From Bacteroidaceae bacterium (GTDB taxonomy: Bacteria > Bacteroidota > Bacteroidia > Bacteroidales > Bacteroidaceae), in NCBI GenBank assembly GCA_017617235.1, contig JAFZWQ010000009.1, positions 1 to 64,000 of the forward strand: a stretch of DNA of 64,000 nt, written 5' to 3'. The position numbers were made by a program, and so were the translations under genes. Positions 5,709 through 50,488 of the stretch are shown here, one piece after another. Each line of letters begins with the position of its first letter. Positions within the stretch are counted from its first letter, which is position 1. A model generated the notes under the pieces. That model made no database searches. It was not told the DNA's origin and worked only from the letters and a program-made list of their open reading frames with translations.

Positions 5709-5748
5709 AATATATGTGCAAAAATACAAAATAATTATGAATTGTGCA

Positions 5749-5779: not shown

Positions 5780-5795
5780 TGCTGAAATTACAGAA

Positions 5796-17381: not shown

Positions 17382-17431
17382 AATCGCATATAAATAGTAA
17401 TTAGTAAATCGTTAAATCGTAAATTACATAG

Positions 17432-19857: not shown

Positions 19858-19956
19858 AAAGTGAAAAATGAAAAGTGAAAAGTGAAAAATTGATACGTAA
19901 CGCCCATCAAAGGCATAACATACAATTTTTAATTTTTAATTTTTAACTTTTAATTT
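19858..19956. repeat. A-rich and T-rich repeat patches forming a long imperfect dyad
   Basis: 19858-19892 holds tandem GTGAAAAATGAAAA units ending in AATTGATAC, and 19922-19956 holds AATTTTTAATTTTT units. The two can pair around a roughly 30-nt loop. The left patch including AGTGAAAAATTGATAC recurs at 63675-63704 after tkt. No gene. Confidence 0.7.
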
Positions 19957-19962
19957 ACCAAT

Positions 19963-28693: not shown

Positions 28694-28724
28694 ATCCCCT
28701 TTGGCTCTGTCAAAGGGGATTTTT
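28694..28724 (+). terminator. Rho-independent terminator after the GH128-like gene
   Basis: ATCCCCTTTG (28694-28703), 7-nt loop, CAAAGGGGAT (28711-28720), then TTTT: a perfect 10-bp stem 25 bp after the stop. It separates the hydrolase pair from the SusCD locus. Confidence 0.95.
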
Positions 28725-28814: not shown

Positions 28815-28888
28815 TTGTTAAAATTAGTTAACAAAAGGAAAAATATCTCTTAACAAAGTTAAAATCTCCTTAATTAAAGTTATATTTG
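28815..28888 (+). promoter_or_regulatory. Putative operator and promoter of the FAS1-SusCD locus
   Basis: TTGTTAA (28815-28821), 6-bp spacer, TTAACAA (28828-28834) form a perfect dyad. A third TTAACAA copy (28850-28856), part of a TTAAC-AAA-GTTAA dyad, lies 22 bp further on. It is followed by TATATTTG (28881-28888), a good -7 box whose -33 position (GTT at 28858-28860) overlaps that dyad. The start codon is 141 bp downstream. No gene lies in 28669-29029. Confidence 0.55.
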
Positions 28889-29029: not shown

Positions 29030-32000
29030 ATGAAAAACCGTTTAGGCAAACTGAGTAGGAACGCATGCTACATGATGTTCCTGCTGGCTGTTAGCGGCAT
29101 TTCGACATCGTGTAAGGACGAGTACATGCTGGACGACGAAAAGCCTAGTTGGCTGAGTTCTAGCATTTACGACAAGTTGGAGAAGAAGGGAAATTACACC
29201 AACTATCTCCGGCTGATTGGCGACCCCGATGTCAACCCCACTAACGCACGCCCCCTCACCGAGGTGCTTTCACGAACAGGTTCAAAGACAGTTTTCGCAG
29301 CCGACGACGATGCATGGAAGCAATTCTTTGCAAGCAATGCTTTGTTGCCGGAAAGCAACCCATGGCATAATGCCACGAGTTACGACAAACTGAGTGTTAA
29401 CCAGAAGAAGCTGCTCATACACACGAGCATGCTGAACAATGCCATCGTGATGGAAAACCTCTCGAGTAGCAGTAGCGACATCAGTTCACGAGGCGACTTC
29501 ATGCGCCGCGAAACCGATGTTGAAATCACCGATACCATCGCATTTTTAGATGGAGACTCGTTGCCCATTAACTACAACGAGGATAACGGAGAGGCTGACT
29601 ATTGGTGGCGATTCCGTAAAAATAATGGCGGTAATGGAATCTATTTGGCAGAAGCCTCTGCTCCTATGATGATTCATTTCACCACTGAGCATTTGACCAA
29701 AAACAGCGTAACAGACGATGACTTCGCAAAATTCATGGGCACACCACGTGTCACAAGCGACGTACATATCAACGATGCTCGCCTGATTGAAAAGGACAGT
29801 GTAGCTGAAAACGGCTATCTGAATAAGACCGAGAAGGTATTGATTCCGCTGCCCAGCATGGCTGAGATACTGCGCACGAACGGAAGTACAAAGATTTTCA
29901 GTCACATGCTGGATCGTTGGAGTGCACCTTACTACAACGAAAGCGTGACACGCGCATATAAAAACCTTATGGCTTCGAGAGGTAAGGAATGGACCGACTC
30001 TATCTTTACCAAGCGTTACTTCTCGACCTATAGTCTGAACAACAAAGCGCTGAACACCGATCCGAAAGGCCAGGAGTTGAAAGGCAAGGACTTCGCCATC
30101 CTGAAGTTCGACCCATCGTGGAATACATTCGTTTCCAATGATAACTACTGGGCTAATAGTCAAAAGACGGCTCCCCAGTTCGATATGGCAGCCATGTTCG
30201 TTCCTGACGACGAAACCATGTGGACATACTTCATGGAGAACGGCGGCGGATGGCAGCTCATCAAAACCTACTACATGAAGGAAGGAACCCCCGAAGAAAT
30301 CCCGTACACGGCTCCTAAGAACTTGGATGAATTGTTCTTCCAAATCGACCAGATTCCCCTAGGAACATTGGAGAGCTTGTTCCAGGTAAACATGCAGCGT
30401 TCATTCGTAGGTTCTGTGCCAAGCAAACTGACTAAGCTACGCGATGACGCTCAGGAGCAAATGTTCTATCCCGAAGATATCCAGTACATCCAGAGAACAT
30501 TACTGGCCAACAATGGTATCATATACATCACCAGCAAAGTGTTCGGTCCTACGGACTACAGAGCTATCACAGCTCCTGCATTCATTAGTAAGACCAACGA
30601 GGTTATGAAATATGCCATCTACAACGGCTATATGTACAAAGATGGTAAGGATAAGTTCAAGCATACCGATCAGATGGGTCTGAACTACTATGCTTACCTG
30701 AAGGCCATGCAGAGTGACTTTGCATTCTTCATGCCCAGCGACACGGCCATGTATTATTACTATGACCCCGTGAGCTTCCGCAGCCAGAAGTCCAGAATTC
30801 TGCATCTTTATTACAAGGAAGCATCATTCCCCATCAAGTACAACATCTATGCCTACGACCCACAAAAGGGTGAGATTGGTGAAACCTACGGAGAAGGCCG
30901 CAAGAAAGAGACCATCGACGATTCAGAAATCGTGAACCGTCTGAAGGATATTCTGGAAAGCCACACCGTAGTGCTTGACGATGGCGTCAAGGAAATCAAC
31001 AGTGGTATCGATGAATACTATCTGGCCAAGAACGGTGCTGCTATCAAGGTTATCCGTGGAATTGGCGCCGACGGCAAACCGCACGTTGTTAAGGTACAGG
31101 GCGGTTTCCAGATTGAGAATGAAGAAAAAGGCATTACCGGAACTATTTCCGCTGCCAACAAGAACAAGTATTTAGGCATCTTGGGTATCCAACAAAACAC
31201 AATTACCGACGAACATAACAAGGACAACGGTACAACCTATATTTTGGACAGCCCAATGATTCCAGCTAGTCGAAGCGTATATAATATCTTTACCAACGAG
31301 TATCGCAACGATAGTCCCTTGTACAACGATTTCTACGAGTTGTGTAAAATCAACGAGAAAGTAATTCGTGCATGCGGTCTGGTTGATGAAAGTGGTTCGC
31401 TGTCTGCAAGCCAGCAGCAAACAGAAGTGAAGAAATATAGTATCTTCATTGAAGACAACGGTTTGGATCAGAACATACAGTTCTTCAATAACTACCGCTA
31501 CACCATTTTCGTCCCCACATCAACAGCATTGAACGAAGCTAGAGCAAAAGGTCTGCCTACATGGGAAGAGATTGAAGCCGACTACGAAGATATGAAGCCC
31601 ATTATGGACGAGTCCAAGACTTTGCGCCAGTCCATCAAGGACTATCTGGCAAAGAAAGACACGGTAGAGGCTGAAAGATTACAGCAGCGTTTGAATGCCA
31701 TTCTGCCCATAGCACAGGCTGACAGCCTCATCCTGCAGGCAAAATGTACCTACCTGATTAACTTCGTACGCTACCACTTCGCCGACAACAGTATATTCGT
31801 GGACAAGAGCACGTATCCCGTCAAGGATTTCGTAACTGCCAGTTACGACAACCAGAAGGGTCTGTTCTGTAAAGTTAACGTAAGACGTCCCAGCAGCGAT
31901 GTATTGGAAGTTCAGGACTATTCGGTAACAGATTCCAAAGGTAACTCTCTCAGTCCTTGGGTTCCCATCACAGGCAAATACAACGTAATGGCCCGTGACT

Positions 32001-32188
32001 ACAGTTGTAGTTCAAAACCCACCGACAAGTCAATGAAGGGTATCAGCATCCAAGGTTCCAGCTTTGCTGTCATCCATCAGGTGCCCAGCGTGCTAAATCA
32101 CACCGAGTTGGTTAACGGACGCCACGACAGCCAATGGAGTAGCGCCGCTGCTGCCAAAAAGTATCTGAAACGATTTGCAATCCACTAA
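29030..32188 (+). CDS. Large outer-membrane lipoprotein with about four FAS1 (fasciclin) domains
   Basis: 1052 aa, first gene of the seven-gene locus. The signal peptide ends in lipobox GISTSC, with Cys28 as lipid anchor; the following KDEYMLDD is acidic, as in surface-exported Bacteroidota lipoproteins. FAS1 H1-type motifs recur at about residues 87 (TVFAADDDAW), 390 (AMFVPDDETMW), 565 (FAFFMPSDTAMY) and 823 (YTIFVPTSTALNEAR), each preceded by helical segments. FAS1 domains are adhesion or ligand-binding modules, not enzymes. Position directly before susC suggests a cell-surface binding role in place of a SusE/F-type protein. The ligand is unknown. Confidence 0.88.
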   Translation: MKNRLGKLSRNACYMMFLLAVSGISTSCKDEYMLDDEKPSWLSSSIYDKLEKKGNYTNYLRLIGDPDVNPTNARPLTEVLSRTGSKTVFAADDDAWKQFFASNALLPESNPWHNATSYDKLSVNQKKLLIHTSMLNNAIVMENLSSSSSDISSRGDFMRRETDVEITDTIAFLDGDSLPINYNEDNGEADYWWRFRKNNGGNGIYLAEASAPMMIHFTTEHLTKNSVTDDDFAKFMGTPRVTSDVHINDARLIEKDSVAENGYLNKTEKVLIPLPSMAEILRTNGSTKIFSHMLDRWSAPYYNESVTRAYKNLMASRGKEWTDSIFTKRYFSTYSLNNKALNTDPKGQELKGKDFAILKFDPSWNTFVSNDNYWANSQKTAPQFDMAAMFVPDDETMWTYFMENGGGWQLIKTYYMKEGTPEEIPYTAPKNLDELFFQIDQIPLGTLESLFQVNMQRSFVGSVPSKLTKLRDDAQEQMFYPEDIQYIQRTLLANNGIIYITSKVFGPTDYRAITAPAFISKTNEVMKYAIYNGYMYKDGKDKFKHTDQMGLNYYAYLKAMQSDFAFFMPSDTAMYYYYDPVSFRSQKSRILHLYYKEASFPIKYNIYAYDPQKGEIGETYGEGRKKETIDDSEIVNRLKDILESHTVVLDDGVKEINSGIDEYYLAKNGAAIKVIRGIGADGKPHVVKVQGGFQIENEEKGITGTISAANKNKYLGILGIQQNTITDEHNKDNGTTYILDSPMIPASRSVYNIFTNEYRNDSPLYNDFYELCKINEKVIRACGLVDESGSLSASQQQTEVKKYSIFIEDNGLDQNIQFFNNYRYTIFVPTSTALNEARAKGLPTWEEIEADYEDMKPIMDESKTLRQSIKDYLAKKDTVEAERLQQRLNAILPIAQADSLILQAKCTYLINFVRYHFADNSIFVDKSTYPVKDFVTASYDNQKGLFCKVNVRRPSSDVLEVQDYSVTDSKGNSLSPWVPITGKYNVMARDYSCSSKPTDKSMKGISIQGSSFAVIHQVPSVLNHTELVNGRHDSQWSSAAAAKKYLKRFAIH

Positions 32189-32200
32189 AACCGAACCACC

Positions 32201-35200
32201 ATGAATAAATATTTCAAGATTATCATGCTATGGGCCGTAGTGTTCTTCGCACTGCCCGTAAGCGCACAAATAAGCCGTATCAGCGGTACGGTAAGTGACG
32301 AGTTCGGTGGCATCCCTGGCATTCAAGTCAAGGAGGTGGACTCGAACAACCGTATTGTCAGCAGCGCCATTACCGATGCCAACGGTAACTTCAACATGGT
32401 TATTAAGAACCAGAAGAACAAACTCGTCTTCCACGGTATGGGTTACTCTGACAAGACGCTCCCCATCAACAAGACGACCTATAAAGTAAATATGGCCGAA
32501 GCTGTAAAACAGATGAAGGAGGTACAGATTATCGGTAAGAAGAAGTCACCCACCACGGGTCTTGACATTCCAGCGCGAGAATACGCTGGTGCAGTCTCCT
32601 CCATGAAAATGGATGACCTAGAAGGTTTGGCTTTTGAATCTGTAGACCAAGCTCTGCAAGGTCAGATTGCAGGTCTCGACATCGTGGCTAACTCTGGTAA
32701 CCTGGGTTCCGGTACCACCATGCGACTGCGCGGTACCACCACCATCAATGGTAACCAACAGCCTTTGATTGTTGTGAACGACCACATCTTCGAATTGCCC
32801 GATGATGCACAGACTATCAACTTCGAGGATATGGATAACGAAGAGCAGTTCTCAACCCTGCTGAACGTAAATACCGAAGACATCGAGAGTATCACCGTAT
32901 TGAAAGACGCAGCTTCTGCAGCCAAGTGGGGTGTGCAAGGTTCAAACGGTGTCATAGAAATTAAGCTCCGTCGTGGTAAACAAGGTCCTACACAGGTAAA
33001 CTTCTCCTACAAGTTCAATGGCACATGGCAGCCCAACGGCTATAAGATGCTGAACGGAGACGGATACACCATGATGCAGAAGGAGGCCTTCTTTAATCCC
33101 ACACAACTTTCCAGCAATATTCCCGAGTTTGACTACAACACGGAATTGCCCTACATCTATAATCATTTCAGTCACAACACCGACTGGTTGGATGCTGTGA
33201 AGCAATTCGGTAAGGAGCATCGTTACTATGTAAACCTCACGGGTGGTGGTGAAAAAGCAACATTCCGTATTGGTGCCGGTTACAACAAGAGTACGGGCTC
33301 TATCATCGGTCAGAAGATGGATCAGTTCACAGAATCCACGACACTGGACTATCAAGTCAGCGACCGCATCCAGTTCCGTGCAACGATGAACATGACCTTT
33401 ACCAACAACCATAAGAACTACGGAAACGATATTCTGGACCGTGCCTATAAGGCAATGCCCAATATGAGTATTTACGAGTACGATGCCATGGGTAATGCCA
33501 CGGGTAACTACTTCAACATGTTACCATTGGCTGCCAACTGGAGCAATACGAATACCACCGGACGTACCAACGATGGTACTATGACTTCGTGGGAACTCAG
33601 ACAGATGTACTCTAATGGTAACCCCGTAGCACGTGCCAATCTAGCCTGGTGGGAAATGAAACAGTACAATCTGACCCCACAGTTCGACATCACCTATAAG
33701 TTCTGGGGCAAGGATTCCGAACATCATCAGATTAACTATAAGGGCGACGTACAGCTCAACATCTATAACACCAGTGACGACACCTATTGTCCTAGCGAAC
33801 TGCACACCATGCCATGGAAATACGGAGGCGACAACGCTTCTAACCTGACCAGCAACGAACGCAACCAGTTGTCGAACACAGAGTACAAATCACTGGAGTT
33901 CACAACACGTCACGAGTTGCACTACTACTCACACTTCAAGAACGCAGACCATAGTCTCTCTGGTATGGCACGCTTCGAAATGGCAGTAGGAAACAGTTCT
34001 AGGCAGAATCTGGGTCTATGGAACGTACCTGATGGAATTAGCGACCCCACTGTAGTAGCCTTGCTCAGTGCTGCCAGCTCCACCACGGGTGAATGGCGCC
34101 GCCACAGTTTCTACGAGCAGTTGCACTATTCATATAAGAGTAAGTACTCTATCGACGCCAGCCTGCGTACCGATGGACGTACAGACTTCGGTCGAGGCTA
34201 TAAATACGGTACCTTCCCTGCAATTGGTGGACGTTGGAATATCAGCGACGAGAAATTCATGGACAAGACCAAGAAGATTATCAGCATGCTGGCCTTCCGT
34301 CCCACATGGGGTATCACAGGTAACCCGGGCCGTGCAGGTGGCAACCAGTACAACAAGTATAGTTTCAATAACACTTTCTATAACGGACACACCATCGTAA
34401 CACCTGAAAACCTGTCACTGACAGAGTTACGTTGGGAAAAGACAGCACAATGGAACCTCGGTTTCAACCTGGGTCTGCTCAACGACTTGTTAACCTTCGA
34501 ACTTGAAATTTACAACAAGAAGACAACCGACTTGTTGTTAGAAAACCTGCGTATTCCCAGTGCCAATGGTTTCAATTCCCTGAGTTGGACCAATGGTGGC
34601 ATCCTTCGCAATAAGGGATGGGAGTTGAACGGTTCTACATCGAAGTTTGCCAAGGTGGGTAAGTTTGCCATGAAGTTGCGTGGTAATGTATCTCAGAACT
34701 TCAACGAAGTGGAAGATATGGACGAACTACTGCTGAAAGAAAGAAACGGCGACGAAACATGGAATCCCACAAACCACAATTATAGAACGTTGATTCAAAA
34801 GCACAATGCACTGGGTTCCATCTATGGTCTGAAGTTCAAAGGTATCTACCGCTACGACTATAACCACAACGGATATGATAATTCCAGCTTCAGAGCTTAC
34901 GGATATGCAGAAAGTGTACCCGATGGCATGGGTGGATATCGTGATGCACTAAACGCCGACGAAGCAGCAGCATACGGTGATGGTTATCATTGGAAACAGA
35001 ACAGCAGCGGCCAATGGGTTCGCGGAGATGCTATCAATACTGCTGCCGCTGCCGCTCGCCGAGGCGAGAATAGCACCTGCCCATTGGTATACGACGAATC
35101 TGGAAATATGGTAACGGATGCAAAGGGTAATCCCCTACCTATGTACTATTGCTACAGCGAGGGTAGCCGCTACCAGTTCCAAGGTGGTGATGCCATTTAC

Positions 35201-35764
35201 GAGGATATCGACCACAATGGATCAATCGACCGCTACGATGTTGTTTACCTTGGTAACTCAAACCCCAAACTTTATGGTGGTTTTGGCATCAACCTCTATT
35301 ATGGGCGTTTCGAGCTAAATGCATCGTTCAACTTCCGTATGGGTAACCAGATTCTGAACCTGGCCAAGAGCGAATATGAAAGCATGAGCGCTATTACCAA
35401 CATGAGTTACGCTACCACATGGCGTTGGCGCAAGAATGGTGATATCACAGATATTCCACGTGCCCTGACCAGCGTCAACGGATATTCCAACTACAACTTC
35501 CTGGTATCCGACCGTAACGTTGAAAATGGTGACTACCTACGTCTGCAGTACATTCAGTTGAAGTATAACTTCGACCCAGGATTGCTGAAGAAGATTCACG
35601 TGAAGACTTGTTACCTGTCAGCCACTATCAACAACGTATTCTGCCTGTCCAAGTACACAGGTGTAGATCCTGAGGTTAGTCCTAGCGGCTTTGATATTGC
35701 CGTCGACAGGAGTAAGACACCCAGACCGCGCTCATTTACATGCAGTATTAACTTTGGCTTCTAA
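32201..35764 (+). CDS. SusC/RagA-family TonB-linked outer-membrane transporter (first copy)
   Basis: 1187 aa with signal peptide MNKYFKIIMLWAVVFFALPVSA. A carboxypeptidase-like domain (SRISGTVSDEFGGIPGIQVKE, about 25-100) leads to the plug with LQGQIAGLDIVANSGNLGSG, RLRGTTTINGNQQPLIVVND and DIESITVLKDAASAAKWG. A long beta-barrel ends in CSINFGF with a terminal aromatic. SusC proteins import glycans or peptides too large for porins, with SusD as lid. It begins 12 bp after the FAS1 gene and ends 12 bp before its SusD partner. Its plug LKDAASAAKWGVQGSNGVIEI is canonical. Confidence 0.95.
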   Translation: MNKYFKIIMLWAVVFFALPVSAQISRISGTVSDEFGGIPGIQVKEVDSNNRIVSSAITDANGNFNMVIKNQKNKLVFHGMGYSDKTLPINKTTYKVNMAEAVKQMKEVQIIGKKKSPTTGLDIPAREYAGAVSSMKMDDLEGLAFESVDQALQGQIAGLDIVANSGNLGSGTTMRLRGTTTINGNQQPLIVVNDHIFELPDDAQTINFEDMDNEEQFSTLLNVNTEDIESITVLKDAASAAKWGVQGSNGVIEIKLRRGKQGPTQVNFSYKFNGTWQPNGYKMLNGDGYTMMQKEAFFNPTQLSSNIPEFDYNTELPYIYNHFSHNTDWLDAVKQFGKEHRYYVNLTGGGEKATFRIGAGYNKSTGSIIGQKMDQFTESTTLDYQVSDRIQFRATMNMTFTNNHKNYGNDILDRAYKAMPNMSIYEYDAMGNATGNYFNMLPLAANWSNTNTTGRTNDGTMTSWELRQMYSNGNPVARANLAWWEMKQYNLTPQFDITYKFWGKDSEHHQINYKGDVQLNIYNTSDDTYCPSELHTMPWKYGGDNASNLTSNERNQLSNTEYKSLEFTTRHELHYYSHFKNADHSLSGMARFEMAVGNSSRQNLGLWNVPDGISDPTVVALLSAASSTTGEWRRHSFYEQLHYSYKSKYSIDASLRTDGRTDFGRGYKYGTFPAIGGRWNISDEKFMDKTKKIISMLAFRPTWGITGNPGRAGGNQYNKYSFNNTFYNGHTIVTPENLSLTELRWEKTAQWNLGFNLGLLNDLLTFELEIYNKKTTDLLLENLRIPSANGFNSLSWTNGGILRNKGWELNGSTSKFAKVGKFAMKLRGNVSQNFNEVEDMDELLLKERNGDETWNPTNHNYRTLIQKHNALGSIYGLKFKGIYRYDYNHNGYDNSSFRAYGYAESVPDGMGGYRDALNADEAAAYGDGYHWKQNSSGQWVRGDAINTAAAAARRGENSTCPLVYDESGNMVTDAKGNPLPMYYCYSEGSRYQFQGGDAIYEDIDHNGSIDRYDVVYLGNSNPKLYGGFGINLYYGRFELNASFNFRMGNQILNLAKSEYESMSAITNMSYATTWRWRKNGDITDIPRALTSVNGYSNYNFLVSDRNVENGDYLRLQYIQLKYNFDPGLLKKIHVKTCYLSATINNVFCLSKYTGVDPEVSPSGFDIAVDRSKTPRPRSFTCSINFGF

Positions 35765-35776
35765 ATCTTGACAAAT

Positions 35777-37807
35777 ATGAAAACACATAACAAAACTGTA
35801 AAAATAGCCCTTCTCCTGGGCATTGCAGCATGGACATTGTCCGCATGCCAAGATTGGTTGACCGTATATCCGACCAACCAGGTTGTGGAAGAAAACTTCT
35901 GGGAAGATAAGAATGACTTGGAAGGTGTACGTTACGCAGCATATCAGCAGATGTGCAAGACAATGAGAAGCCTTATCCTCTGGGGTGACCTTCGCTCGGA
36001 TTCTTATTCACTTTACAGTACAAGTGACAATTCGACCAAAAGTTTGTGGACAGAAATCCGCGACGGACGTATCGAACGAGACTCTGCCAATGCCTATTTC
36101 GACTGGAGTGGTGTATATCGCACCATTAACTATTGTAACAAGGTATTGCAACACGGAGCCGAAGTATTGGAGCGTGACAAGCAGTTTACATCGGCCGAAT
36201 GGCAGCAGATGAAGGCTGAAATCACTGGTCTACGCGCACTGAATTATTTCTATCTGATTCGCGCCTTCAAGGATATCCCCTTCTCCACCAAAGTTATCAA
36301 CAAAGACACGGAAGTACAATACTTTTATGCCACAAACCAATTGATTGTACTCGACTCGTTGATTACAGATCTGGAAAGTGTAAAGGGACAAGCTCGCAAC
36401 CGTTTCTCGACAATCAGAGACACTAAGGGTCTTATCACCAACCCCGCAATCTATGCTATGTTGAGTGATATGTACCTTTGGCGCGCTGCGCTACACGAAG
36501 GACGAGGTATGGCAACGGATAGCATTATCATTACCAATGTACCCGCCAAAGTTGGTACGAAAGTTATCCACACGGTGAAAGGCGACTACCAGTTGGCTGC
36601 AGACTATGCAGATTTAGCATTGGCTGCATTGGCTGAACAGAACAACCATAACAACCTTAGCATCAGTTCCTCTAGGACATTGATGATTAACTACGGTTTG
36701 GAAAACTGCTATATGTACAAGAACGACTTCTCGAACTTCGCCAATGGTTCATCGCCCAGGCTGTCAGCTTTCGCCTCCATCTTCGGTGGAAACAGCGAGG
36801 AGAGTATCTTCGAGTTGCAGTTCAGCCAGTCAGAAGGACGCTCACACGATATGAACAAAATCTGGAGTTATGACCGTAGTAGCAACGACAACACCCGATT
36901 GGCTACCAGCGAAGCTACATTGAGTAAAATTTACAACAGCAATGCCAATATGCTTCCACGCGACAGTCGTCTGTGGATTGCAGGATGGAACAAAGGAGTA
37001 GACGATAATGGAGGTGTAGAGAACATGCCTGAGCGTTTCTGCTTCAAGTGGAGCGGTGGCGACTACTCATTGAAACTGCCTGCTTCTAATAAATGCGAAG
37101 ATATTGCTGTTATACCCGAACCCGATCAATATAGCAATTGGATTATCTATCGCCTCAGTGATGTCATGCTCCAAAAGGCAGAAGCATTAGTCGCTTTAGG
37201 TAAAGAGGGGGATGCCATGCGCTATGTCAATGCTATACACCGTCGTTGGTATTGTAACGACAACACGTCGAATACAGAACAGCCAAATGAAGACGTTACC
37301 GGCGCAAGTGGTGCTGTTAATCAGGCTGACGACAACGCGAACAAAGGTAACCTGCCAAAGGCCACCAATTTCGAAATTGCTGTACTCAACGAACGTCAAT
37401 TGGAATTCCTAGGCGAGGGTAAACGCTGGTTCGACCTTGTGCGTTATGCAGAACGCCATTCAGGTGGAACTAAAGGAAAGGGACTGGACGAAAAAGCATG
37501 GAATTCTCCTTATCCCAAAGGAACGACCAACGGTACCACCAGAGCACAATACTTCCCCGAAGCCGCCTGTGAGCCAGCTGGAACCAACAGCGGTATAGAT
37601 GGAATTGAAAAGATGCTCGAAGACCTTATGAGTGGTGAATGGGATGTACAGAAGCGTAAGACTCTCCGCAACCGATTCAAAAACCGCTATGGATTGTATA
37701 ACCTTATTTACTATAAGGAAATCGAGGCCACGAATGGTGAAAACAACAAGAGCGGCAATCATCTGGAACAGAATCCTGTATGGAACAAATCATTGTATGA
37801 CGATTAA
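35777..37807 (+). CDS. SusD/RagB-family surface lipoprotein (first copy)
   Basis: Lid of the SusC barrel, binding the substrate at the cell surface. 676 aa with lipobox TLSAC (Cys24) and QDWLTVYPTNQVVEENFW, the usual SusD opening. TPR-like helices follow (EITGLRALNYFYLIRAFKDIPF), then NERQLEFLGEGKRWFDLVRY, the most conserved SusD signature, near residue 545. The ATG at 35777 is chosen because it gives the lipoprotein leader; a TTG 9 bp earlier is unlikely. It is longer than the usual 500-600 aa. Paired with the upstream SusC. Confidence 0.94.
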   Translation: MKTHNKTVKIALLLGIAAWTLSACQDWLTVYPTNQVVEENFWEDKNDLEGVRYAAYQQMCKTMRSLILWGDLRSDSYSLYSTSDNSTKSLWTEIRDGRIERDSANAYFDWSGVYRTINYCNKVLQHGAEVLERDKQFTSAEWQQMKAEITGLRALNYFYLIRAFKDIPFSTKVINKDTEVQYFYATNQLIVLDSLITDLESVKGQARNRFSTIRDTKGLITNPAIYAMLSDMYLWRAALHEGRGMATDSIIITNVPAKVGTKVIHTVKGDYQLAADYADLALAALAEQNNHNNLSISSSRTLMINYGLENCYMYKNDFSNFANGSSPRLSAFASIFGGNSEESIFELQFSQSEGRSHDMNKIWSYDRSSNDNTRLATSEATLSKIYNSNANMLPRDSRLWIAGWNKGVDDNGGVENMPERFCFKWSGGDYSLKLPASNKCEDIAVIPEPDQYSNWIIYRLSDVMLQKAEALVALGKEGDAMRYVNAIHRRWYCNDNTSNTEQPNEDVTGASGAVNQADDNANKGNLPKATNFEIAVLNERQLEFLGEGKRWFDLVRYAERHSGGTKGKGLDEKAWNSPYPKGTTNGTTRAQYFPEAACEPAGTNSGIDGIEKMLEDLMSGEWDVQKRKTLRNRFKNRYGLYNLIYYKEIEATNGENNKSGNHLEQNPVWNKSLYDD

Positions 37808-37824
37808 GGATGGAGGACTGAACT

Positions 37825-40020: not shown

Positions 40021-40054
40021 GCATGCAAGAATTGATAACTGACAATTGATAATT

Positions 40055-41986
40055 ATGAATAAGATTAAAACATATATAGGAGCCGCAGTACTGGGTGCAA
40101 CAGTACTGGCTATTCCCAGTTGCTCCGACACATGGGACGACCACTATGGAGTCGGAGACAATAACACAGCGGCAACGGCGTCAACCCTTTGGGATCTGAT
40201 TGAAGATGATCCTAATCTGAGCTATTTCAAGGAAATCGCAGAGGCATCTACCTTCTATCGCGATGAAGAGCATCCCCAGAACAACTATACGTTCAAGGAT
40301 ATGCTACAGGGTTCAATGCTTACCACAGTATGGATTCCTACAAACGATGCCTTTACCCCTGCCGACACGACGAAGTGGATGACATACGCTCGTGAAAAGG
40401 GATACACTGTCCAGCAGCAGCTTTTAGCCAATAGTATTGCACTTTGGCGTCAAGTTGCAATTGGCGGAGGTAGCTTGGTAGACACCGTAACCATGCTGAA
40501 TGGTAAGAAGATGACATTCGACAAGGTGAACCTAACAATGCAGGGTGTTAACATGGATCCGCAGCACAAGAACATTACCGCATCCAATGGTACCCTGCAT
40601 TACGTGGACGCTCCCCTGCCCTTCAAATATAATCTCTACGAATTCCTGAAGGACAATGATAATGCCACTGCCAATAGCATGACAAAGTTCCACGATTACA
40701 TCATCTCCAACGACACCACCTATTTCAGTCAGGATTTGAGTATTGAAGGTACACCCGACATCAATGGTAACCCCACATATGTAGATAGTGTCTATGTTAC
40801 CACTAACAAGTTATTCTTTGGGAACCACAGTTTCCCCACGGATAACAATACCGACCAGTATTTAACCTTCGACGAAAGTTTTGGTGAAAGCATAGAGGAC
40901 GAAGACTCTACCTATATTCTGCTCATGCCGACAGATGCCGCATGGGACAATGCTATTAGCGATTTGAAGTCTCTATACAAATATGCACCGGCTTATGCCG
41001 ACAATCAGAAGATTAATGCAGGTACGAACAATGCTAATCCTCGTCTTATTAATGATGTGGATTCATTCCAATTGAAGAATATCACGATGGACATAACCTC
41101 TCCGCTTTGCTTCAATCTGCACTTCCAACCTGATGCTGTAGGTAAAAGAGGTAAATGGAAATTAGACGATTTCCTGTCGGATCAGGGAGCACGAGCCAAG
41201 TATCTCCTGAATTCCTTTGGAGACACCCTCCGTTCTGATGCAAACTGGAATCAATCCACACTCTTCGATGGAACGCAGTTAAGCGTCAGCAATGGTGTAG
41301 GCATTGTCAAAACTGAATGGAACATTCCCAGCAAATTGTACAAGCCTGATGTATATGTCGAAGCCTCTCGTCACACTATGTACAAGCCTATAGAAAGTCA
41401 GATTGGTACTATGAAGACTTATTCTTACACCTATGACGTAGTTAAACCTTGGCTGTCAAAGACTGGACGTTTGTTCAACGATGATTTTATCTGCCTAAGC
41501 CCAGACCAAGCCACCAGTGCTCCCCGTTTCGAATTCAAGTTGGAAGGCACTAATGGTGAGAATGTCGAGAGCGAAGTCATGAGTGGTAAATACGACATCT
41601 ATGTAGTCATGGTTCCCAATTTCTACATGACCAGCGCTACCTCAGACAAGATTGTCCATAACATTGGTGATGATGGCAGTGCAAAGATTATTGAAAACGA
41701 CACCGTACCTGTTAAACACAAGATTCGTGCAACCATCACTTATTGCAACGGTAATCTTCAAGGACGTGAAGGTACAATGAAAAGCGACCTTGTTGAATAT
41801 ACTGGAGAAAAAGTGGACACACTGCTTCTGTTCAAGGACTTTGAATTCCCCTACAGTTACAAAAACCTTCGTTTCAGCTATCCCAGCATCCAGATTACAA
41901 CGGATCATAAGTCAGCTGATCTTCGAAATGAGTATACCAACTATATCTGTATCGATCGTTTCATCCTGAGAAGTAAAGAAGATTAA
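40055..41986 (+). CDS. FAS1-domain lipoprotein (third FAS1 gene)
   Basis: 643 aa with leader and lipobox AIPSC (Cys23), followed by SDTWDDHYG, the common start of Bacteroidota FAS1 lipoproteins. FAS1 motifs are TTVWIPTNDAFTPADTTKW (about residue 95) and STYILLMPTDAAWDNAI (about 290). The last 200 residues form a beta-rich domain (RFEFKLEGTNGENVESEVMSG, IYVVMVPNFYM). It starts at the ATG at 40055, 34 bp after the previous gene, the widest gap in the locus, and is followed 4 bp later by the second susC. Presumed surface exposed. Confidence 0.87.
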   Translation: MNKIKTYIGAAVLGATVLAIPSCSDTWDDHYGVGDNNTAATASTLWDLIEDDPNLSYFKEIAEASTFYRDEEHPQNNYTFKDMLQGSMLTTVWIPTNDAFTPADTTKWMTYAREKGYTVQQQLLANSIALWRQVAIGGGSLVDTVTMLNGKKMTFDKVNLTMQGVNMDPQHKNITASNGTLHYVDAPLPFKYNLYEFLKDNDNATANSMTKFHDYIISNDTTYFSQDLSIEGTPDINGNPTYVDSVYVTTNKLFFGNHSFPTDNNTDQYLTFDESFGESIEDEDSTYILLMPTDAAWDNAISDLKSLYKYAPAYADNQKINAGTNNANPRLINDVDSFQLKNITMDITSPLCFNLHFQPDAVGKRGKWKLDDFLSDQGARAKYLLNSFGDTLRSDANWNQSTLFDGTQLSVSNGVGIVKTEWNIPSKLYKPDVYVEASRHTMYKPIESQIGTMKTYSYTYDVVKPWLSKTGRLFNDDFICLSPDQATSAPRFEFKLEGTNGENVESEVMSGKYDIYVVMVPNFYMTSATSDKIVHNIGDDGSAKIIENDTVPVKHKIRATITYCNGNLQGREGTMKSDLVEYTGEKVDTLLLFKDFEFPYSYKNLRFSYPSIQITTDHKSADLRNEYTNYICIDRFILRSKED

Positions 41987-41990
41987 GACT

Positions 41991-44900
41991 ATGAAAAAGA
42001 TTAGCAATACAATTATGCACATCAGTCTCCAAAGAGGCTTGTGTCTTGCGATGCTTTCGTGCATATGTTTCTCTACCGCGTTTGCTCAGGCTGAGACCGA
42101 GGTAGACAGCGCAACAGCTGTCAACGTCTACAACAAGCGAAAGGCAGAAAAAGAGAAAATCGCGAAGCAATACGAAATGCAGACCGTCAAGGGAAAGGTT
42201 ACCGACAACGCTACGGGCAAAGCCATAGGTGGTGTACGTATCCAAGCCTTGGGTTACGAGAAATTCTCTGTACTGACCGAAGAGGACGGAACCTATAGTT
42301 TTGAGGTTCCTGTATTCGCCAATGCATTGTACCTCTACGTACCAGGTTATGTTCCTCAGCAAGTACCCATCAAATCTGGAAAAGACGTGAATGCGGCTAT
42401 GCTGAGTGACGTATTCAGAACGTACTACACCGATGGTACTACCATCACGGCAGAAGCTATTGCAAAACTGGATCAGACCAGTAGCATCACGATAGAAACC
42501 GACATCGAGAACCAACTTGCCGGAGCCGTACATAGTACTAGCCGTAATGGTCTGCCTGGACAGGGAGCTTATCTCGCCATTCGAGGTGTAAACTCTTTGA
42601 ATGCCAATGCCCAGCCCCTGATTATTCTGGATGGCAACATCATTGACCCCGAATTCGAACGTACCAGTCTGCACGAAGGATACTATAATAACATCCTTTC
42701 TGGCATTGACCCCGAGAATGTTGAGAGCATCAAAGTGCTGAAGAATGGAACAGCACTTTACGGTGCAAAGGGTGCCAATGGTGTAATCATCATTACCACC
42801 AAACGCGGCCATAGCATGACAACAAAGATTAATGTTCGTATCTATGGCGGAACGGAACTCACCCCCAAGAAGCTCGATATGCTCAATGGATCGCAGTATC
42901 GTACCTATTTGGGTGACTTGACCAGCACCATTAAGGATGTTAACATCATGAATTACAATGGTGGCATCAACAACATTAACTGGGCATTCCTTAATGATAA
43001 TAGTGACAATTACTATTATAAAGTATTCCACAACAACACCGATTGGCAAAAGGACGTATATCGCAACACATTTGTCCAGAACTACAAAATCAATGTAGAA
43101 GGTGGTGATGAAGTGGGTATGTACTCTTTGTCACTGGGTTACACGAAGGCCGATGCTACCCAAAAGGGCACAGACATGAACCGTCTGAATCTTCGATTCA
43201 ATACGGACATCAAGATTACAAATGCACTGACAACAGCTTTGGATATTGCCTATAACCAAACAGCCTATTACCTGTTGGATAATGGTTGGAGCGAGAACTA
43301 CGACATGCAAAACATCGGTAGTACCAATGTATTAGGTCTTATCCAAAGTCCTATGATTAGTCCTTATGCCTACTATCACGACGATGCATTGGGAGGCCTG
43401 AACCTGTCCAGCGAATATGCCGGAAAGTATGCCAACAACAACAATTCCACATGGGTACAGAATCCCTTCAAATATCCCCAATATATGGGTATAAACGAAA
43501 GTTTGCGTAATCCCTATTGGATTCTTCAGAATGGACAGGCAAAAAACAAGAACTATGCTGAACTGACACAGATTAACATCAACGTCAAACCCAAGTACCA
43601 GATTACAAAGCAGCTTTCTGTAAGTGATCGCTTCAACTACCAATTGAACCGTAACAACGAACGCTACTTCCTCCCCATCGCTGGTACTACACAGTACTTC
43701 CTTGAAGACCTGGGTTATATTACGTCGGTATTGAAATCACAATTCACTAAGGAAACCACCATCAACAACGACCTCCAAATCCAGTGGAAGAACTCCTATG
43801 GTGCACACAATGTCGATGTATTTGGCGGATGGCGCTATAATAACTATAGCTACTCCTACAGTTTCATGCGCGGTTATAACAATGAAAACGACAAACTGCC
43901 CAACATCGGTAAGAGTATGCAGTATGTGAACTATGGCGGCACCAAGGATAACTGGATTGATATGACCTACTATCTGAACGGTGCATACAACTATGCAAAC
44001 AAATACTTTGCCGAGTTCACCGTCAGCAGCCAGGCCAGCAGTAAGTTCGGTAACAATACGAAGCAGGGCTTCCAACTTGGTGGTGTCAGCTGGGGTGTCT
44101 TCCCCAGTCTGCAATTGGGTTGGCTTATAACAAACGAGAAGTGGTTCAAACCGACCAAGGGTATTAACTACCTGAAGTTGACAGCAGGTGTTGACCAAAG
44201 CGGTAATGACAACCTCGACTACTATGCAGCTCGTACTTATTGGGAGAGCCAGCAAGTATTGGAAGACATTGTAGGTCTTTATCTGAAGAACATCGAAAAC
44301 AGCACCATCCAGTGGGAAACAGCCACGAAGTGGAATGTTGGCCTCCATGGTTCATTCCTAAACAACCGTCTGCAAGCTGGTATTGATCTCTATCGCCATA
44401 AGATTGACAACCTACTCACCATCAAGGACCTCAAATATATTTCCGGTATGACCAAATATTGGACGAACGAAGGTGCCATGCGCAACAATGGTTTCGAAAT
44501 CAATGCCAATGCCGCCCTCCTCAACAAGAAAGACTGGAAATGGGAAGTTGGTGCAACTGTAGGTCACTACAACAATAAGATTACAAAGTTGCCCACAGAG
44601 AACCAGATTTATTTGAAAAATGCCGATGGAACACCCACTGGTCAACTTAATGGTTACACCACCAGTATCTATGGTCAGGACAACGTGCTCACAGCTGTGG
44701 GTTATGCCGCAGGCAGTTTCTATGGTTGGCAGACTAACGGAGTCTTTATTGACGATGCTACTGCAAGCCAAGCAACGACTGTAACGCGCAATGGCAACAA
44801 CTACTTAAAGTATCCCACAGGTTTGGTACAGGATCCCTACCGCAACTTCCAGGCTGGTGACGTACGTTTCGTCGACCAGAACAACGACGGTGTTATTGAC

Positions 44901-45431
44901 GATGCCGATAAAGTTGTCATTGGTAATCCCAATCCCGACATCTACGGAAATCTCTATACAAGCCTGACTTGGAAGAACTTGCGTCTCGATGTAAACTTCA
45001 AGTACTCGTTGGGTAACGATATTTACAACTACCAGCGTTCCATCCTTGAAAGCATGAACACCACATACAACCAGACAACAGCGACCTTGCGCCGCTGGGC
45101 CTACGAAGGTCAGCAGACCGATATGCCAAAGGCATGCTACATGGAAAGCGACAACTGGCGCAACAACGAGCGCATGAGCGACCGCTGGATTGAGGATGGC
45201 AGTTATCTGAAACTGAAGAACGTTCGCATTACCTACAATCTGCCCTACTCTAACTCTTGGCTACAAGGTTTGAAGATTTGGGCCGAAGGTAACGACCTCT
45301 GGACAATTACCAAATATCTGGGTACTGATCCCGAAATGTCGTGCCGTAACAGTTCGCTGTATCAGGGTATCGACACAGGTATGATTCCTAATGGACGCAG
45401 CTTCAATATCGGTGTATCTATCAACTTGTAA
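41991..45431 (+). CDS. SusC/RagA-family TonB-linked outer-membrane transporter (second copy)
   Basis: 1146 aa. A signal peptide lies near the N-terminus (LCLAMLSCICFSTAFAQA), then an unusual charged stretch (NKRKAEKEKIAKQYE) before the carboxypeptidase-like domain VKGKVTDNATGKAIGGVRI. Plug motifs are YLAIRGVNSLNANAQPLIIL and NVESIKVLKNGTALYGAKGA; the barrel ends in NIGVSINL. The usual plug alanine pair (KDAASAA) is here KNGTALYG. It is clearly diverged from the first SusC, so the two pairs probably take different ligands or different forms of one ligand. SusD follows 13 bp downstream. Confidence 0.95.
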   Translation: MKKISNTIMHISLQRGLCLAMLSCICFSTAFAQAETEVDSATAVNVYNKRKAEKEKIAKQYEMQTVKGKVTDNATGKAIGGVRIQALGYEKFSVLTEEDGTYSFEVPVFANALYLYVPGYVPQQVPIKSGKDVNAAMLSDVFRTYYTDGTTITAEAIAKLDQTSSITIETDIENQLAGAVHSTSRNGLPGQGAYLAIRGVNSLNANAQPLIILDGNIIDPEFERTSLHEGYYNNILSGIDPENVESIKVLKNGTALYGAKGANGVIIITTKRGHSMTTKINVRIYGGTELTPKKLDMLNGSQYRTYLGDLTSTIKDVNIMNYNGGINNINWAFLNDNSDNYYYKVFHNNTDWQKDVYRNTFVQNYKINVEGGDEVGMYSLSLGYTKADATQKGTDMNRLNLRFNTDIKITNALTTALDIAYNQTAYYLLDNGWSENYDMQNIGSTNVLGLIQSPMISPYAYYHDDALGGLNLSSEYAGKYANNNNSTWVQNPFKYPQYMGINESLRNPYWILQNGQAKNKNYAELTQININVKPKYQITKQLSVSDRFNYQLNRNNERYFLPIAGTTQYFLEDLGYITSVLKSQFTKETTINNDLQIQWKNSYGAHNVDVFGGWRYNNYSYSYSFMRGYNNENDKLPNIGKSMQYVNYGGTKDNWIDMTYYLNGAYNYANKYFAEFTVSSQASSKFGNNTKQGFQLGGVSWGVFPSLQLGWLITNEKWFKPTKGINYLKLTAGVDQSGNDNLDYYAARTYWESQQVLEDIVGLYLKNIENSTIQWETATKWNVGLHGSFLNNRLQAGIDLYRHKIDNLLTIKDLKYISGMTKYWTNEGAMRNNGFEINANAALLNKKDWKWEVGATVGHYNNKITKLPTENQIYLKNADGTPTGQLNGYTTSIYGQDNVLTAVGYAAGSFYGWQTNGVFIDDATASQATTVTRNGNNYLKYPTGLVQDPYRNFQAGDVRFVDQNNDGVIDDADKVVIGNPNPDIYGNLYTSLTWKNLRLDVNFKYSLGNDIYNYQRSILESMNTTYNQTTATLRRWAYEGQQTDMPKACYMESDNWRNNERMSDRWIEDGSYLKLKNVRITYNLPYSNSWLQGLKIWAEGNDLWTITKYLGTDPEMSCRNSSLYQGIDTGMIPNGRSFNIGVSINL

Positions 45432-45444
45432 CGAATTGACGATT

Positions 45445-47679
45445 ATGAAAAAGACATCTATTATAAGTTTACTGATTTGTTGCATCACCTTTGGTGGGAT
45501 GACAACATCGTGTGAGGATATGCTTTCCCCCGACAGCGAACGTCATAGCTACGTGGTCGCACAGGATACCCTGTACAGTTACTGGGGCATCGTTAAATCG
45601 TTGCAGAATGTAGCAGAACGATACATTGTACTCGGTGAATGTCGTGGTGATTTAATTTCTGGCACAGGCTATGTCAGCGATTCCATTCAGGCCATTCTTG
45701 ACTTTGATATGAATAACGCGACCGATGGAAGTTGCCGTTTCCTGTGTGCATCCGACTACTATCACATCATTAACTCGTGCAATGCCTATTTGGCTCAGTA
45801 CGATAGTGTGCGTACTACCGGTACGTTGGAACCCTATATGTTAAAAGAGGCCTCTCAGGTACGAGCCATTCGTGCATGGGTATATCTTCAATTGGTACAG
45901 GTTTATGGTGAAGTTCCTTTCTATACCGAACCTCTGCTTACCACTGACAAGATTAACTCATTCATGGATGCCTATGCAAAGAATCCCACAGGCCGACAGG
46001 CTACAGCAGACAATCTGGTTGACTTGCTGACCGATGATTTGCAGGATGCTATGAATATCGAACAATTATGGGGCTGGCCACAATACGACACCTATGGTCT
46101 AGGCAGTAATCCAAAGGTTCATAGTTCCAAGGTTATGCTTCCTGCCAGTCTGGTTTTGGGCGATTTATATCTGACAAAGGGAGATCCTGCCAGTTGTGCC
46201 TATGCTGCTTTGTGCTACTATTACTATCTGAGTAACTACATGGATAATGGTAAGATGGTGGCTGGTGGCACACTGCCCTCAAACTACTGCATTGGTACGA
46301 AAGGAGATGGCATGACCAAAGCCATGTATACCCATAATGGTAGTGTACCTTGGACTGAAACAGGTGCTGTTAGCACCTCTAATGAATCCATTACCTGTAT
46401 CCCCTCCTCTGTTAACAAGCTGTGGGGTACCATCCTGCGTGGTGTGAACAACCTGTATGGATTCGCCAGTGAAATTCGTGTTAGCACCGAGGAAACCAGC
46501 GATACGACCTCTCAGACCAATGCTTCCGTTTATTTATCGGCTCAGTACGATGTTAAGCAATTGTCTGCCAGCAAACGGTATTTCGACCTGTGCAAGGAAC
46601 AAAAGTTTGAGACCTATTATGCCAGCAGTACCACCGAGTTGCAAACCGCAGACATCAAGGTCGAAGATTCCATTGGTGATGCTCGCCAGTATTGGGTTCG
46701 CGATTACTACCAAACATACGAAAACGGGCTTTCGAACACAGAAAAGTTCATTTCAAAGTTGAATCCCAGTGGTTTCAGCATTGTGTCACACATGATTTAT
46801 CGTAAGAGTATGGTATGGTTGCGTTTTGCCGAAGCCCTATGTGGTGCCGGTTATCCCAGTTATGCATTTGCAATTCTGAAGAATGGACTCTGCAACAACG
46901 AAACATGGTATCCCGACGCTACCGATTTTGCCGTTAAGGATAGTACCTGGTACTTCGTTTCAGCAACCAACGACACCATCCCCACACCGGCTTCTGGAGT
47001 AATCTGTGCAACACAAGCCGAACTGGCTGCATGCATGGCAGGCGTTGATACCCTTACTCAGGCAGGTATCGATGACGGACGTAAATATTGGAAGGCTGTA
47101 AGTCGCTATAACTATGCTGATGATAACTGTACCGCCATCCTAAACTATCTGGATGCGCGCGAAGTAAACAGCAAGGCCCAGTTCATAGATTTTGAACACG
47201 AAGTGCTGAATGGTCGGTTTACGACGCAAATCGTTGTATGGCGTACATCGGCTACAGACGACAGTTATAATTTGTCATCGCTAAAGGTTCAGGGTGACGA
47301 TAATATCACCTATGGTATCCACAGTCATGGTTGTGGAATGCTACGATATGACGAGCGTAACAGCCAATACAATTACGTAGATCAGGTCATCAAGAAGGCC
47401 AAAGAGAACTATAATGTAACACTGACCAAGGAAACCATCTATGATGGTTCACAGGATGCAATCGTACAAAAGTGCGTCGAAGACCTCATTGTTGAGGAAG
47501 AGGCCATGGAGCTGGCATTCGAAGGCACCCGTTTCTTCGACTTGATGCGTGTAGCTCATCGCCGCAATGATCCTACTTACCTGGCAAGCCGTGTAGCTAT
47601 GCGCAGTGGTACTAACGACCCTGCTTTATACACCAAGTTGTTGACACCTGCTAACTGGTACTTTAAATTGCCGAAATAA
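45445..47679 (+). CDS. SusD/RagB-family surface lipoprotein (second copy)
   Basis: 744 aa, unusually long for SusD. Lipobox MTTSC (Cys23) followed by EDMLSPDSERHSYV. SusD helices include KEASQVRAIRAWVYLQLVQVYGEVPFY, close to the family consensus, and the C-terminal EEEAMELAFEGTRFFDLMRVAHRR. A long insertion near the middle (about residues 270-420) separates the TPR-like parts. The ATG at 45445 gives the lipoprotein leader. Last gene of the locus; the terminator at 47706-47737 follows. Confidence 0.93.
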   Translation: MKKTSIISLLICCITFGGMTTSCEDMLSPDSERHSYVVAQDTLYSYWGIVKSLQNVAERYIVLGECRGDLISGTGYVSDSIQAILDFDMNNATDGSCRFLCASDYYHIINSCNAYLAQYDSVRTTGTLEPYMLKEASQVRAIRAWVYLQLVQVYGEVPFYTEPLLTTDKINSFMDAYAKNPTGRQATADNLVDLLTDDLQDAMNIEQLWGWPQYDTYGLGSNPKVHSSKVMLPASLVLGDLYLTKGDPASCAYAALCYYYYLSNYMDNGKMVAGGTLPSNYCIGTKGDGMTKAMYTHNGSVPWTETGAVSTSNESITCIPSSVNKLWGTILRGVNNLYGFASEIRVSTEETSDTTSQTNASVYLSAQYDVKQLSASKRYFDLCKEQKFETYYASSTTELQTADIKVEDSIGDARQYWVRDYYQTYENGLSNTEKFISKLNPSGFSIVSHMIYRKSMVWLRFAEALCGAGYPSYAFAILKNGLCNNETWYPDATDFAVKDSTWYFVSATNDTIPTPASGVICATQAELAACMAGVDTLTQAGIDDGRKYWKAVSRYNYADDNCTAILNYLDAREVNSKAQFIDFEHEVLNGRFTTQIVVWRTSATDDSYNLSSLKVQGDDNITYGIHSHGCGMLRYDERNSQYNYVDQVIKKAKENYNVTLTKETIYDGSQDAIVQKCVEDLIVEEEAMELAFEGTRFFDLMRVAHRRNDPTYLASRVAMRSGTNDPALYTKLLTPANWYFKLPK

Positions 47680-47705: not shown

Positions 47706-47737
47706 AATACGCGATGGCCTTTTGACCATCGCGTATT
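47706..47737. terminator. Bidirectional terminator between SusD and comEC
   Basis: AATACGCGATGG (47706-47717), 8-nt loop, CCATCGCGTATT (47726-47737): a perfect 12-bp stem, T-rich on both sides, 26 bp after the SusD stop and 2 bp after the convergent comEC stop. Confidence 0.93.
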
Positions 47738-49873: not shown

Positions 49874-50488
49874 TTAGACGGCGAGATAGAGGTCGCGATG
49901 ACTGGCCATACGACGCAGATTAATCATGGCATAGCGCATACGTCCCAACGAGGTATTGATACTAACGCCTGTGGCCTCTGCTATCTCCTTAAATGACATA
50001 TCTCGGAAGTAACGCATATTCACCACTTCACGCTGTGCTTCGGGCAAACGCTCAATCATCATACGTACATCATCGTGTGATTGCTCAACAAGCATTTTGG
50101 ATTCTATATTAGGCTCACACAACGATGAATCGTTGAAAAGGTCGGCAACCAAATCACCCTCACCATCCACCAACTCGTGGGAAATCACATTACGGTTGGG
50201 ATTACGCTGACTACGAAAACGGTCGAGCACCTGGTTACGTGCAATACGCATCAACCACGATGAGAACTGGCCAGACTCGGCGTAATGTCCATTGCGAATA
50301 GCCATAATAACCTTGACGAAAGTGTCCTGAAAGACATCGTTTGCGAGGTCTGTATCAGAAACCATAGACTGAATGTAACCAAAGACTTTGTCTTGGTGAC
50401 GTGCTAAAAGTACATCGAATGCTTGAAAGTCGCCTTCTTCGTACATGCGGACCAGAGTTTCATCGGTCTGCTTTACGTAATTATTCAT
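49874..50488 (-). CDS. RNA polymerase sigma factor, ECF type (sigma-70 family)
   Basis: 204 aa. The region 2 part (residues about 20-90) has DFQAFDVLLARHQDKVFGYI, DLANDVFQDTFVKV and FSSWLMRIARNQVLDRFR. The region 4 part (about 130-190) has LPEAQREVVNMRYFRDMSFKEIAEATGVSINTSLGRMRYA, a clear helix-turn-helix. No anti-sigma gene is adjacent, unlike the FecI/FecR-type ECF factors of SusCD loci, so it is probably a housekeeping-type ECF factor controlled by its own promoter (50561-50590). Its targets cannot be told from the window. Confidence 0.93.
   Translation of the reverse strand: MNNYVKQTDETLVRMYEEGDFQAFDVLLARHQDKVFGYIQSMVSDTDLANDVFQDTFVKVIMAIRNGHYAESGQFSSWLMRIARNQVLDRFRSQRNPNRNVISHELVDGEGDLVADLFNDSSLCEPNIESKMLVEQSHDDVRMMIERLPEAQREVVNMRYFRDMSFKEIAEATGVSINTSLGRMRYAMINLRRMASHRDLYLAV

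Follow-up and report, generated by a model that had tools for sequence, protein, structure and literature searches.

A seven-gene module of two SusC/SusD pairs and three FAS1 lipoproteins recurring in Bacteroidia: a probable outer-membrane uptake system

Introduction

SusCD complexes are a main nutrient gateway of gut Bacteroidota, and many of the accessory lipoproteins that accompany them have no assigned role. The present analysis concerns a locus of this type in a window of 64,000 nucleotides (the whole stretch of DNA analysed, from a Bacteroidaceae bacterium, contig JAFZWQ010000009.1), in which two SusC/SusD pairs are interleaved with three lipoproteins carrying FAS1, a classical adhesion domain. 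The seven genes probably constitute one outer-membrane uptake system (a rough probability of 0.65), consisting of two SusC/SusD transporters and three FAS1 lipoproteins in a capture role of the SusE/F type, with complex plant glycans as the probable substrates. The kind of system is already known, being SusCD uptake, and is not a new category. What seems to be new, as far as the literature searched shows, is the seven-gene FAS1 module as a class-wide unit and one lipoprotein, FAS_B, as its mobile part; no description of FAS1-SusCD modules was found in that literature.

The closest studied system, and a probable relative by gene order, is the rhamnogalacturonan I (RG-I) locus BT4164-BT4169 of Bacteroides thetaiotaomicron, which lies within the polysaccharide utilization locus BT4145-BT4183. 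A passage of a review names BT4167 as the surface protein that binds RG-I, and BT4164/BT4165 and BT4168/BT4169 as the pairs that import it (PMC8002723). An excerpt of a second paper lists BT4164-BT4169 as SusC, DUF5108, hypothetical proteins and TonB receptor (PMC10434189), and part of a third gives RG-I as the primary substrate of BT4145-83 and BT4178 as a hybrid two-component system (HTCS) mutant (PMC3243724). A portion of PMC10199937 mentions a contig with two SusCD pairs and, independently of this, a FAS1 gene with high transcription, and draws no link between them. In BT4164-BT4169, as in the window, lipoprotein genes separate two SusC/SusD pairs. The gene order there, SusC-SusD-x-SGBP-SusC-SusD (SGBP, surface glycan-binding protein), is that of SusC1-SusD1-FAS_B-FAS_C-SusC2-SusD2 here, the likeness being one of gene order and of the DUF5108 domain, not of sequence.

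Organization of the locus

Positions 29030-47679 of the window hold seven genes, all on the plus strand, in the order FAS_A-SusC1-SusD1-FAS_B-FAS_C-SusC2-SusD2:

29030..32188, plus strand: FAS_A, the first lipoprotein, 1052 aa, with FAS1 repeats
32201..35764, plus strand: SusC1, a SusC/RagA TonB-dependent transporter forming its own group
35777..37807, plus strand: SusD1, a lipoprotein; the listed open reading frame (ORF) begins at TTG 35768
37825..40020, plus strand: FAS_B, a lipoprotein of 731 aa with FAS1 domains and a C-terminal region; the variable, detachable subunit
40055..41986, plus strand: FAS_C, a lipoprotein with FAS1 domain(s) and a C-terminal region; the listed ORF begins at TTG 40046
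41991..45431, plus strand: SusC2, a SusC/RagA TonB-dependent transporter of a second group
45445..47679, plus strand: SusD2, a lipoprotein; the listed ORF begins at ATG 45391

The true starts of SusD1, FAS_C and SusD2 are likely ATG 35777, ATG 40055 and ATG 45445, and with these starts the successive intergenic gaps measure 12, 12, 17, 34, 4 and 13 bp. The ORFs and coordinates agree with a preliminary description of this DNA, which had given the same order on a single strand with gaps of 4-34 bp. That description had also reported no hydrolase, protease, sensor or sigma factor gene between 29030 and 47679, and indeed none was found inside the seven-gene module; its statement on hydrolases must be qualified because two glycoside hydrolase (GH)-like genes, which it overlooked, sit directly upstream on the same strand.

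All three FAS proteins exceeded the Pfam cut-off of 22 bits for Fasciclin (PF02469), with 35.7 for FAS_A, 24.0 for FAS_B and 27.4 for FAS_C. The SusC proteins scored 603.7 (SusC1) and 587.1 (SusC2) bits with TIGR04056 (cut-off 368.25), and the SusD proteins 74.5 (SusD1) and 23.4 (SusD2, barely above the cut-off of 23.1) with PF07980. Taking a SusCD pair as a TIGR04056 SusC adjoining a PF07980 SusD, both pairs are of this kind, the second only just. Both SusC proteins matched solved structures of SusC homologues (for example 8aa4, 5t3r), with RagA among the matches, and the FAS_B and FAS_C profiles matched structures of TGFBIp (5nv6, 7asg) and periostin (best E 3e-14 and 3e-12). No SusE or SusF domain was found by Pfam in the three FAS lipoproteins, where the only matches up to E 0.1 were to Fasciclin.

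The FAS1 domains reported in the preliminary description are therefore present; the number of motifs that it gave (2-4) can be read clearly only in relatives, where Pfam delimits 4 and 5 Fasciclin stretches in two FAS_A proteins, 2 in four FAS_B proteins and 1, 1 and 2 in three FAS_C proteins. The N-terminal FAS1 regions of FAS_A, FAS_B and FAS_C are homologous (hhalign 99.3-99.7%). The C-terminal tails of FAS_B and FAS_C gave a weak, doubtful match to each other (hhalign 57%), and the beta-sandwich tails proposed earlier were not established. The lipoboxes held up: the cysteines C28 of FAS_A, C26 of FAS_B and C26 of FAS_C show no variation across alignments of 15, 20 and 15 rows, respectively.

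Recurrence of the module beyond the genus

The distribution of the module was followed through the order (taken as Bacteroidales), the class (Bacteroidia) and the phylum. A total of 83 loci, every one picked for a FAS_A match, were classified with position profiles derived from the modules of the window and of 15 loci; these 16 modules are also among the 83 and match by construction, and no locus from outside the genus was used in building the profiles. All seven classes were recognised in 38 of the 83, and many of the others are cut by the ends of contigs or of the stretches.

Order-wide, the FAS_A alignment matched 49 of 393 genomes (E 1e-3, own genome included). Of the 48 others, 26 were examined; in 25 of them SusC1 comes after a FAS_A-like gene, and the contig ends in the 26th (L187). 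In a phylum sample, 8 of 395 genomes matched FAS_A at E 1e-10, again with the own genome included, and the seven others belong to two families (f122 and f124) of the same class outside the order. All seven carry FAS_A-SusC1-SusD1-FAS_B-FAS_C-SusC2, followed by SusD2 where the stretch extends that far. Conserved FAS1-SusCD neighbourhoods, which the preliminary description had proposed to look for, were thus found, patchily, in other families of the order and in all seven matching genomes from the rest of the class. A view of the locus as peculiar is wrong, the module recurring in the host genome, in the genus, in other families and outside the order. The presence of this gene row in distant relatives suggests a single ancient uptake machine and not a local oddity.

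Within the family of the window, a broader FAS_A alignment matched 179 of 251 genomes (E 1e-15) in 18 of 30 genera. Family modules outside the genus were read directly only in G448 (L150, L151) and G955 (L266); nine more have two SusC genes just downstream of FAS_A on the same strand, with starts 7-10 kb apart. Deviations from the order were also observed. FAS_B precedes FAS_A in L149, L161 and L163 and is missing from L165, a single FAS1 gene lies between SusD1 and SusC2 in L186, the FAS_C place in L190 and L197 is taken by a protein that the profile does not recognise, and L147 consists of two part-sets cut by the ends of the stretch examined. In L266 (G955:C16, flanks L246 and L247), from a larger genome of the family, the module has a housekeeping setting, between asparaginase/radA-type and homoserine dehydrogenase/threonine synthase genes.

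Copies in the genus and joint divergence of the seven proteins

The host genome (85.5% complete) contains two further copies of the module order, on contigs C11 and C13, whose genes match their own module position best wherever matched. The FAS_C of C13 gave no match to the protein set of the window; FAS_C proteins of other modules (e.g. L076) match both. Corresponding proteins of the three host modules share 21-50% identity, and the copies are therefore old paralogous modules. The three modules account for six of the seven SusC genes detected in this genome. For the remaining one, on C4, the profiles recognise no FAS1 neighbour; it belongs to the only non-module SusC/SusD pair detected there (L267, G000:C4:11000-25500), which is followed by three proteins of 412, 463 and 437 aa, none recognised by the FAS profiles.

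In the genus, FAS_A matched all 61 genomes (E 1e-3), weakly in at least G004 and G019, where the matches were read as FAS_B cross-matches. All 20 genus regions examined hold the module as far as the contig or stretch extends, four of them without FAS_B. The module of L224 (G034), otherwise lacking FAS_B only, has a FAS_A that appears as two frames of 842 and 262 aa.

In a tree of 52 SusC proteins, one branch (support 100*) set apart the 25 SusC1 and a second (support 78) the 25 SusC2, and largely the same subgroups appear in both groups; the tree was made by a "quick" method from 25 loci hand-picked among the 83 and two non-module SusC with long branches. In the 38 loci with all seven classes, the pairwise distances of the seven proteins correlate with r of 0.85-0.97, reaching 0.97 for SusC1 and SusC2. 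The seven proteins have diverged in step, and the set has therefore been inherited as a unit.

Promoter-like element, hairpins and neighbouring genes

The following features flank the module:

24653..25804, plus strand: GH43/GH32-like protein, upstream of the 951-aa gene
25813..28668, plus strand: 951-aa protein with weak GH39 and H_lectin matches, upstream of the module
28694..28720, plus strand: terminator-like hairpin between the upstream GH-like gene and FAS_A
28881..28888, plus strand: Bacteroidetes-type -7 element fitting TAnnTTTG, upstream of FAS_A
47706..47737, plus strand: terminator-like hairpin with a T-run, after SusD2

The sequence TATATTTG, between the hairpin at 28694-28720 and FAS_A, fits TAnnTTTG, the Bacteroidetes -7 pattern. 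This pattern occurs within 350 bases 5' of FAS_A in 35 of 37 window-type modules, compared with a mean of 4.2 and a maximum of 9 in shuffled sequences. The earlier claim that the FAS1 genes belong with SusCD is borne out by the recurring order, the joint divergence and this element, and we infer that the seven genes are co-transcribed. The preliminary description placed a terminator only at the end of the locus. The hairpin after SusD2 is present, a second one precedes FAS_A, and the terminator-like sites in the whole scan (17) were not above chance (17.5 in shuffles).

No carbohydrate-active enzyme (CAZyme) gene lies inside the module; the two GH-like genes are upstream, behind the terminator-like hairpin, and some flanks of relatives carry CAZymes. 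The 951-aa protein is homologous (302-334 bits) to an enzyme encoded upstream of the modules L153, L154, L155 and L160 of other families, at 26-89 bp from FAS_A in L153, L154 and L160 and at 698 bp in L155. In L153 and L154, the two that were scanned, this enzyme has Glyco_hydro_cc and H_lectin domains and a type IX secretion system (T9SS) tail; no such tail was found by Pfam in the 951-aa protein. Both upstream genes are kept in L096. Neither an HTCS nor an extracytoplasmic function (ECF)/anti-sigma regulator was found among the six same-strand genes before the module and the first two genes after it; HTCS are present beside the modules of some relatives. An ECF-type sigma factor gene lies at 49874-50488 on the minus strand, beyond comEC and rpe, with no sign of belonging to the module.

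FAS_B as the variable part

FAS_B differs from the other genes in its constancy. Four modules (L229, L230, L232 and L233) have two FAS_B in tandem. In 16 genomes of the genus the module lacks FAS_B, FAS_C coming next after SusD1, and these genomes contain 3-19 FAS_B-like genes elsewhere (at least that many as counted for G005 and G032), some incomplete and one with an internal stop. Where FAS_B is present in the module (27 genomes), 0-2 copies occur elsewhere, except in G031 with six; G003 has a partial further copy. The place of FAS_B was taken from match coordinates in 11 of the 27 (G001, G002, G006, G014, G015, G018, G020, G021, G028, G036 and G083). Left aside in the count were G062 and G073 (FAS_B within the module, other copies uncounted), G011, G065, G066 and G080 (cut module or unclear place of FAS_B) and G004, G019, G026, G027, G029, G030 and G033 (no intact window-type module seen), of which G004, G019 and G026 have 5-6 FAS_B copies each.

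Modules without FAS_B were associated with many copies elsewhere (Mann-Whitney p 6e-8), which is not independent evidence because these modules fall in one clade together with G031, with two changes; the loss therefore reflects one or few events. The preliminary description had held that its reading would fail if the same proteins commonly occurred without SusCD. This is so for FAS_B-like genes in one clade; in the loci read, FAS_A and FAS_C are kept beside SusCD.

Solo FAS_B genes are mostly isolated among housekeeping-like genes, as read from protein starts, with no family search. The -7 pattern lies near the start of 33 of 45 of them, compared with 5.8 in shuffles, and they therefore look expressed. 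Enzyme partners suggested by the first contexts (GH78, GH2, DUF5703/GH95-like, CotH) were dropped, the genes of the wider set being mostly isolated. Mean pairwise identity was 0.47 among 46 solo and 0.52 among 23 module copies of FAS_B, with a C-terminus at about 0.8. A ligand-variable patch was rejected, identity being spread along the protein save for this very conserved C-terminus, and the C-terminus as a docking tail fails outside the genus, where tails differ.

Convergent solo FAS_B genes flank a region resembling (by protein starts) one and the same ATPase operon in three genus genomes, and some solo sites are thus common to several species:

L198: solo FAS_B at 1017-3155 and 19104-20000
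L199: solo FAS_B at 853-3114 and 17536-19686
L200: solo FAS_B at 4449-6578 and 17227-19383

A second common site, near a purD-like gene (by its start), was seen in three genomes (L205 4579-6771, L207 4714-6966 and L217 4706-6889).

These observations suggest, tentatively, a constant six-part core (FAS_A, SusC1, SusD1, FAS_C, SusC2, SusD2) with an exchangeable FAS_B. In one clade FAS_B might have left the operon and multiplied, up to 19 being counted per genome, as separately promoted solo lipoproteins that dock in trans, giving a combinatorial SusCD receptor. If so, the solo FAS_B repertoire would give one double transporter many ligand ranges.

Function, ligand and alternative explanations

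In the proposed uptake system, two different SusC/SusD "pedal-bin" TonB-dependent transporters would form the import part, and the three FAS1 surface lipoproteins would serve as ligand-binding or assembly proteins in the role of SusE/SusF or an SGBP. FAS_C and FAS_B may capture a large glycan and hand fragments to both transporters, and the proteins would together form a physical complex. FAS_A, which directly precedes SusC1 in nearly all loci read, would probably partner the first pair. The surface capture by FAS1 proteins in place of SusE/F that the preliminary description proposed is in part sustained, fitting the invariant lipoprotein cysteines and the role given to BT4167 in the review passage (PMC8002723).

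The neighbours of the modules were tallied for clues to the ligand, as raw counts without matched control SusC loci and with no claim of enrichment. In 67 flanking ORFs from 34 out-of-genus loci (two of the ORFs standing where FAS_C would be expected in L190 and L197), the 25 of 101 families listed include HTCS domains (5), T9SS tails (5), GH28 (3), GH43 (2), GH95 (2) and FGGY kinases (2). Ten modules of the window's family, taken from its other genera, gave 75 flanking ORFs, for which the 25 of 119 families listed include GH10 (2), GH43 (2), GH67 (1), GH95 (1) and regulator domains (2-3). RG-I or pectin as a general ligand was rejected, being hinted at by GH28 and FGGY kinases outside the genus and not by the 10 window-family flanks. 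The original ligand is likely a complex, probably plant-derived glycan, with RG-I pectin possible and the best candidate. In favour of the proposed system, a clear DUF5108 protein (E 1.6e-17) fills the FAS_B place in L268, between SusD1 and FAS_C, and BT4164-BT4169 likewise include a DUF5108 protein. The C-terminal part of the L181 FAS_B barely passes the DUF5108 cut-off (27.5 versus 27.4), and its neighbours look, by eye, like L-rhamnose genes.

Several observations weigh against the proposed uptake system. Few CAZymes are found among the families listed for the 10 window-family flanks, so that the neighbours there do not support even a glycan ligand. An excerpt of PMC13088901 lists the substrate of BT_4163-BT_4165 as unknown. 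The FAS_B of the window has no Pfam match to DUF5108, and at 1e-10 the domain was found in only one of 295 class genomes, that of L268. The module has a patchy distribution, FAS_A matching in 49 of 393 genomes of the order and 8 of 395 of the phylum, and FAS_B is missing while the other genes persist in 16 genus genomes and L165. Correlated divergence comes partly from species history, despite which the three paralogous subtypes in one genome keep their sets together. The closest out-of-genus locus also varies by gene, the seven genes of each own module pointing to three or four loci.

The poverty of CAZymes in the window-family flanks would suit an importer of peptides or protein fragments of the RagAB kind, with FAS1 binding a proteinaceous matrix, as would RagA among the structures matched by both SusC and the extracellular-matrix proteins among the FAS1 structures matched. 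Such an importer is nevertheless unlikely: the module contains no peptidase, a single one (M19 dipeptidase) appears among the families listed in both tallies (25 of 101 and 25 of 119), the out-of-genus flanks carry HTCS domains (5 of 67 ORFs), GH28, GH43, GH95 and FGGY kinases, and parts of two papers report RG-I for B. thetaiotaomicron (PMC8002723, PMC3243724). We judge improbable a mere adjacency of two independent SusCD systems that take up different ligands and have FAS1 binding proteins of their own. SusC1 and SusC2 do form distinct groups and might differ in ligand, but both halves stay together in the loci read and the SusC1-SusC2 distances correlate at 0.97. Solo FAS_B genes without SusCD, and the adhesive nature of FAS1 domains, would agree with adhesins for plant or host surfaces that are co-transcribed with SusCD and act outside uptake. 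This is very improbable, as the loci read keep FAS_A and FAS_C together with SusCD and BT4167, in the FAS_C place, is described in the review passage as an RG-I surface glycan-binding protein (PMC8002723).

As an uptake system, the module gives genes annotated "fasciclin domain" and DUF5108 a testable function, suggests that some SusCD systems act as pairs of pairs, and marks FAS_B as a part that evolution moves and multiplies.

Comparison with known systems

The window shares a SusC/SusD pair with extra surface lipoproteins with the Sus starch system and the levan and dextran utilisomes, in which SusCD is accompanied by SusE/F or SGBP lipoproteins. Unlike these, it has two SusCD pairs, lipoproteins matching only Fasciclin in Pfam, and no surface hydrolase inside. 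FAS_B and FAS_C resemble TGFBIp and periostin in their FAS1 structural matches; unlike them, they are bacterial lipoproteins tied to SusCD transporters. The B. thetaiotaomicron genes stand in a large, enzyme-rich locus with HTCS, whereas the module of the window has no internal enzyme or regulator. By gene order, BT4163 would correspond to FAS_A, and FAS_C holds the same place as BT4167, the reported binder of RG-I.

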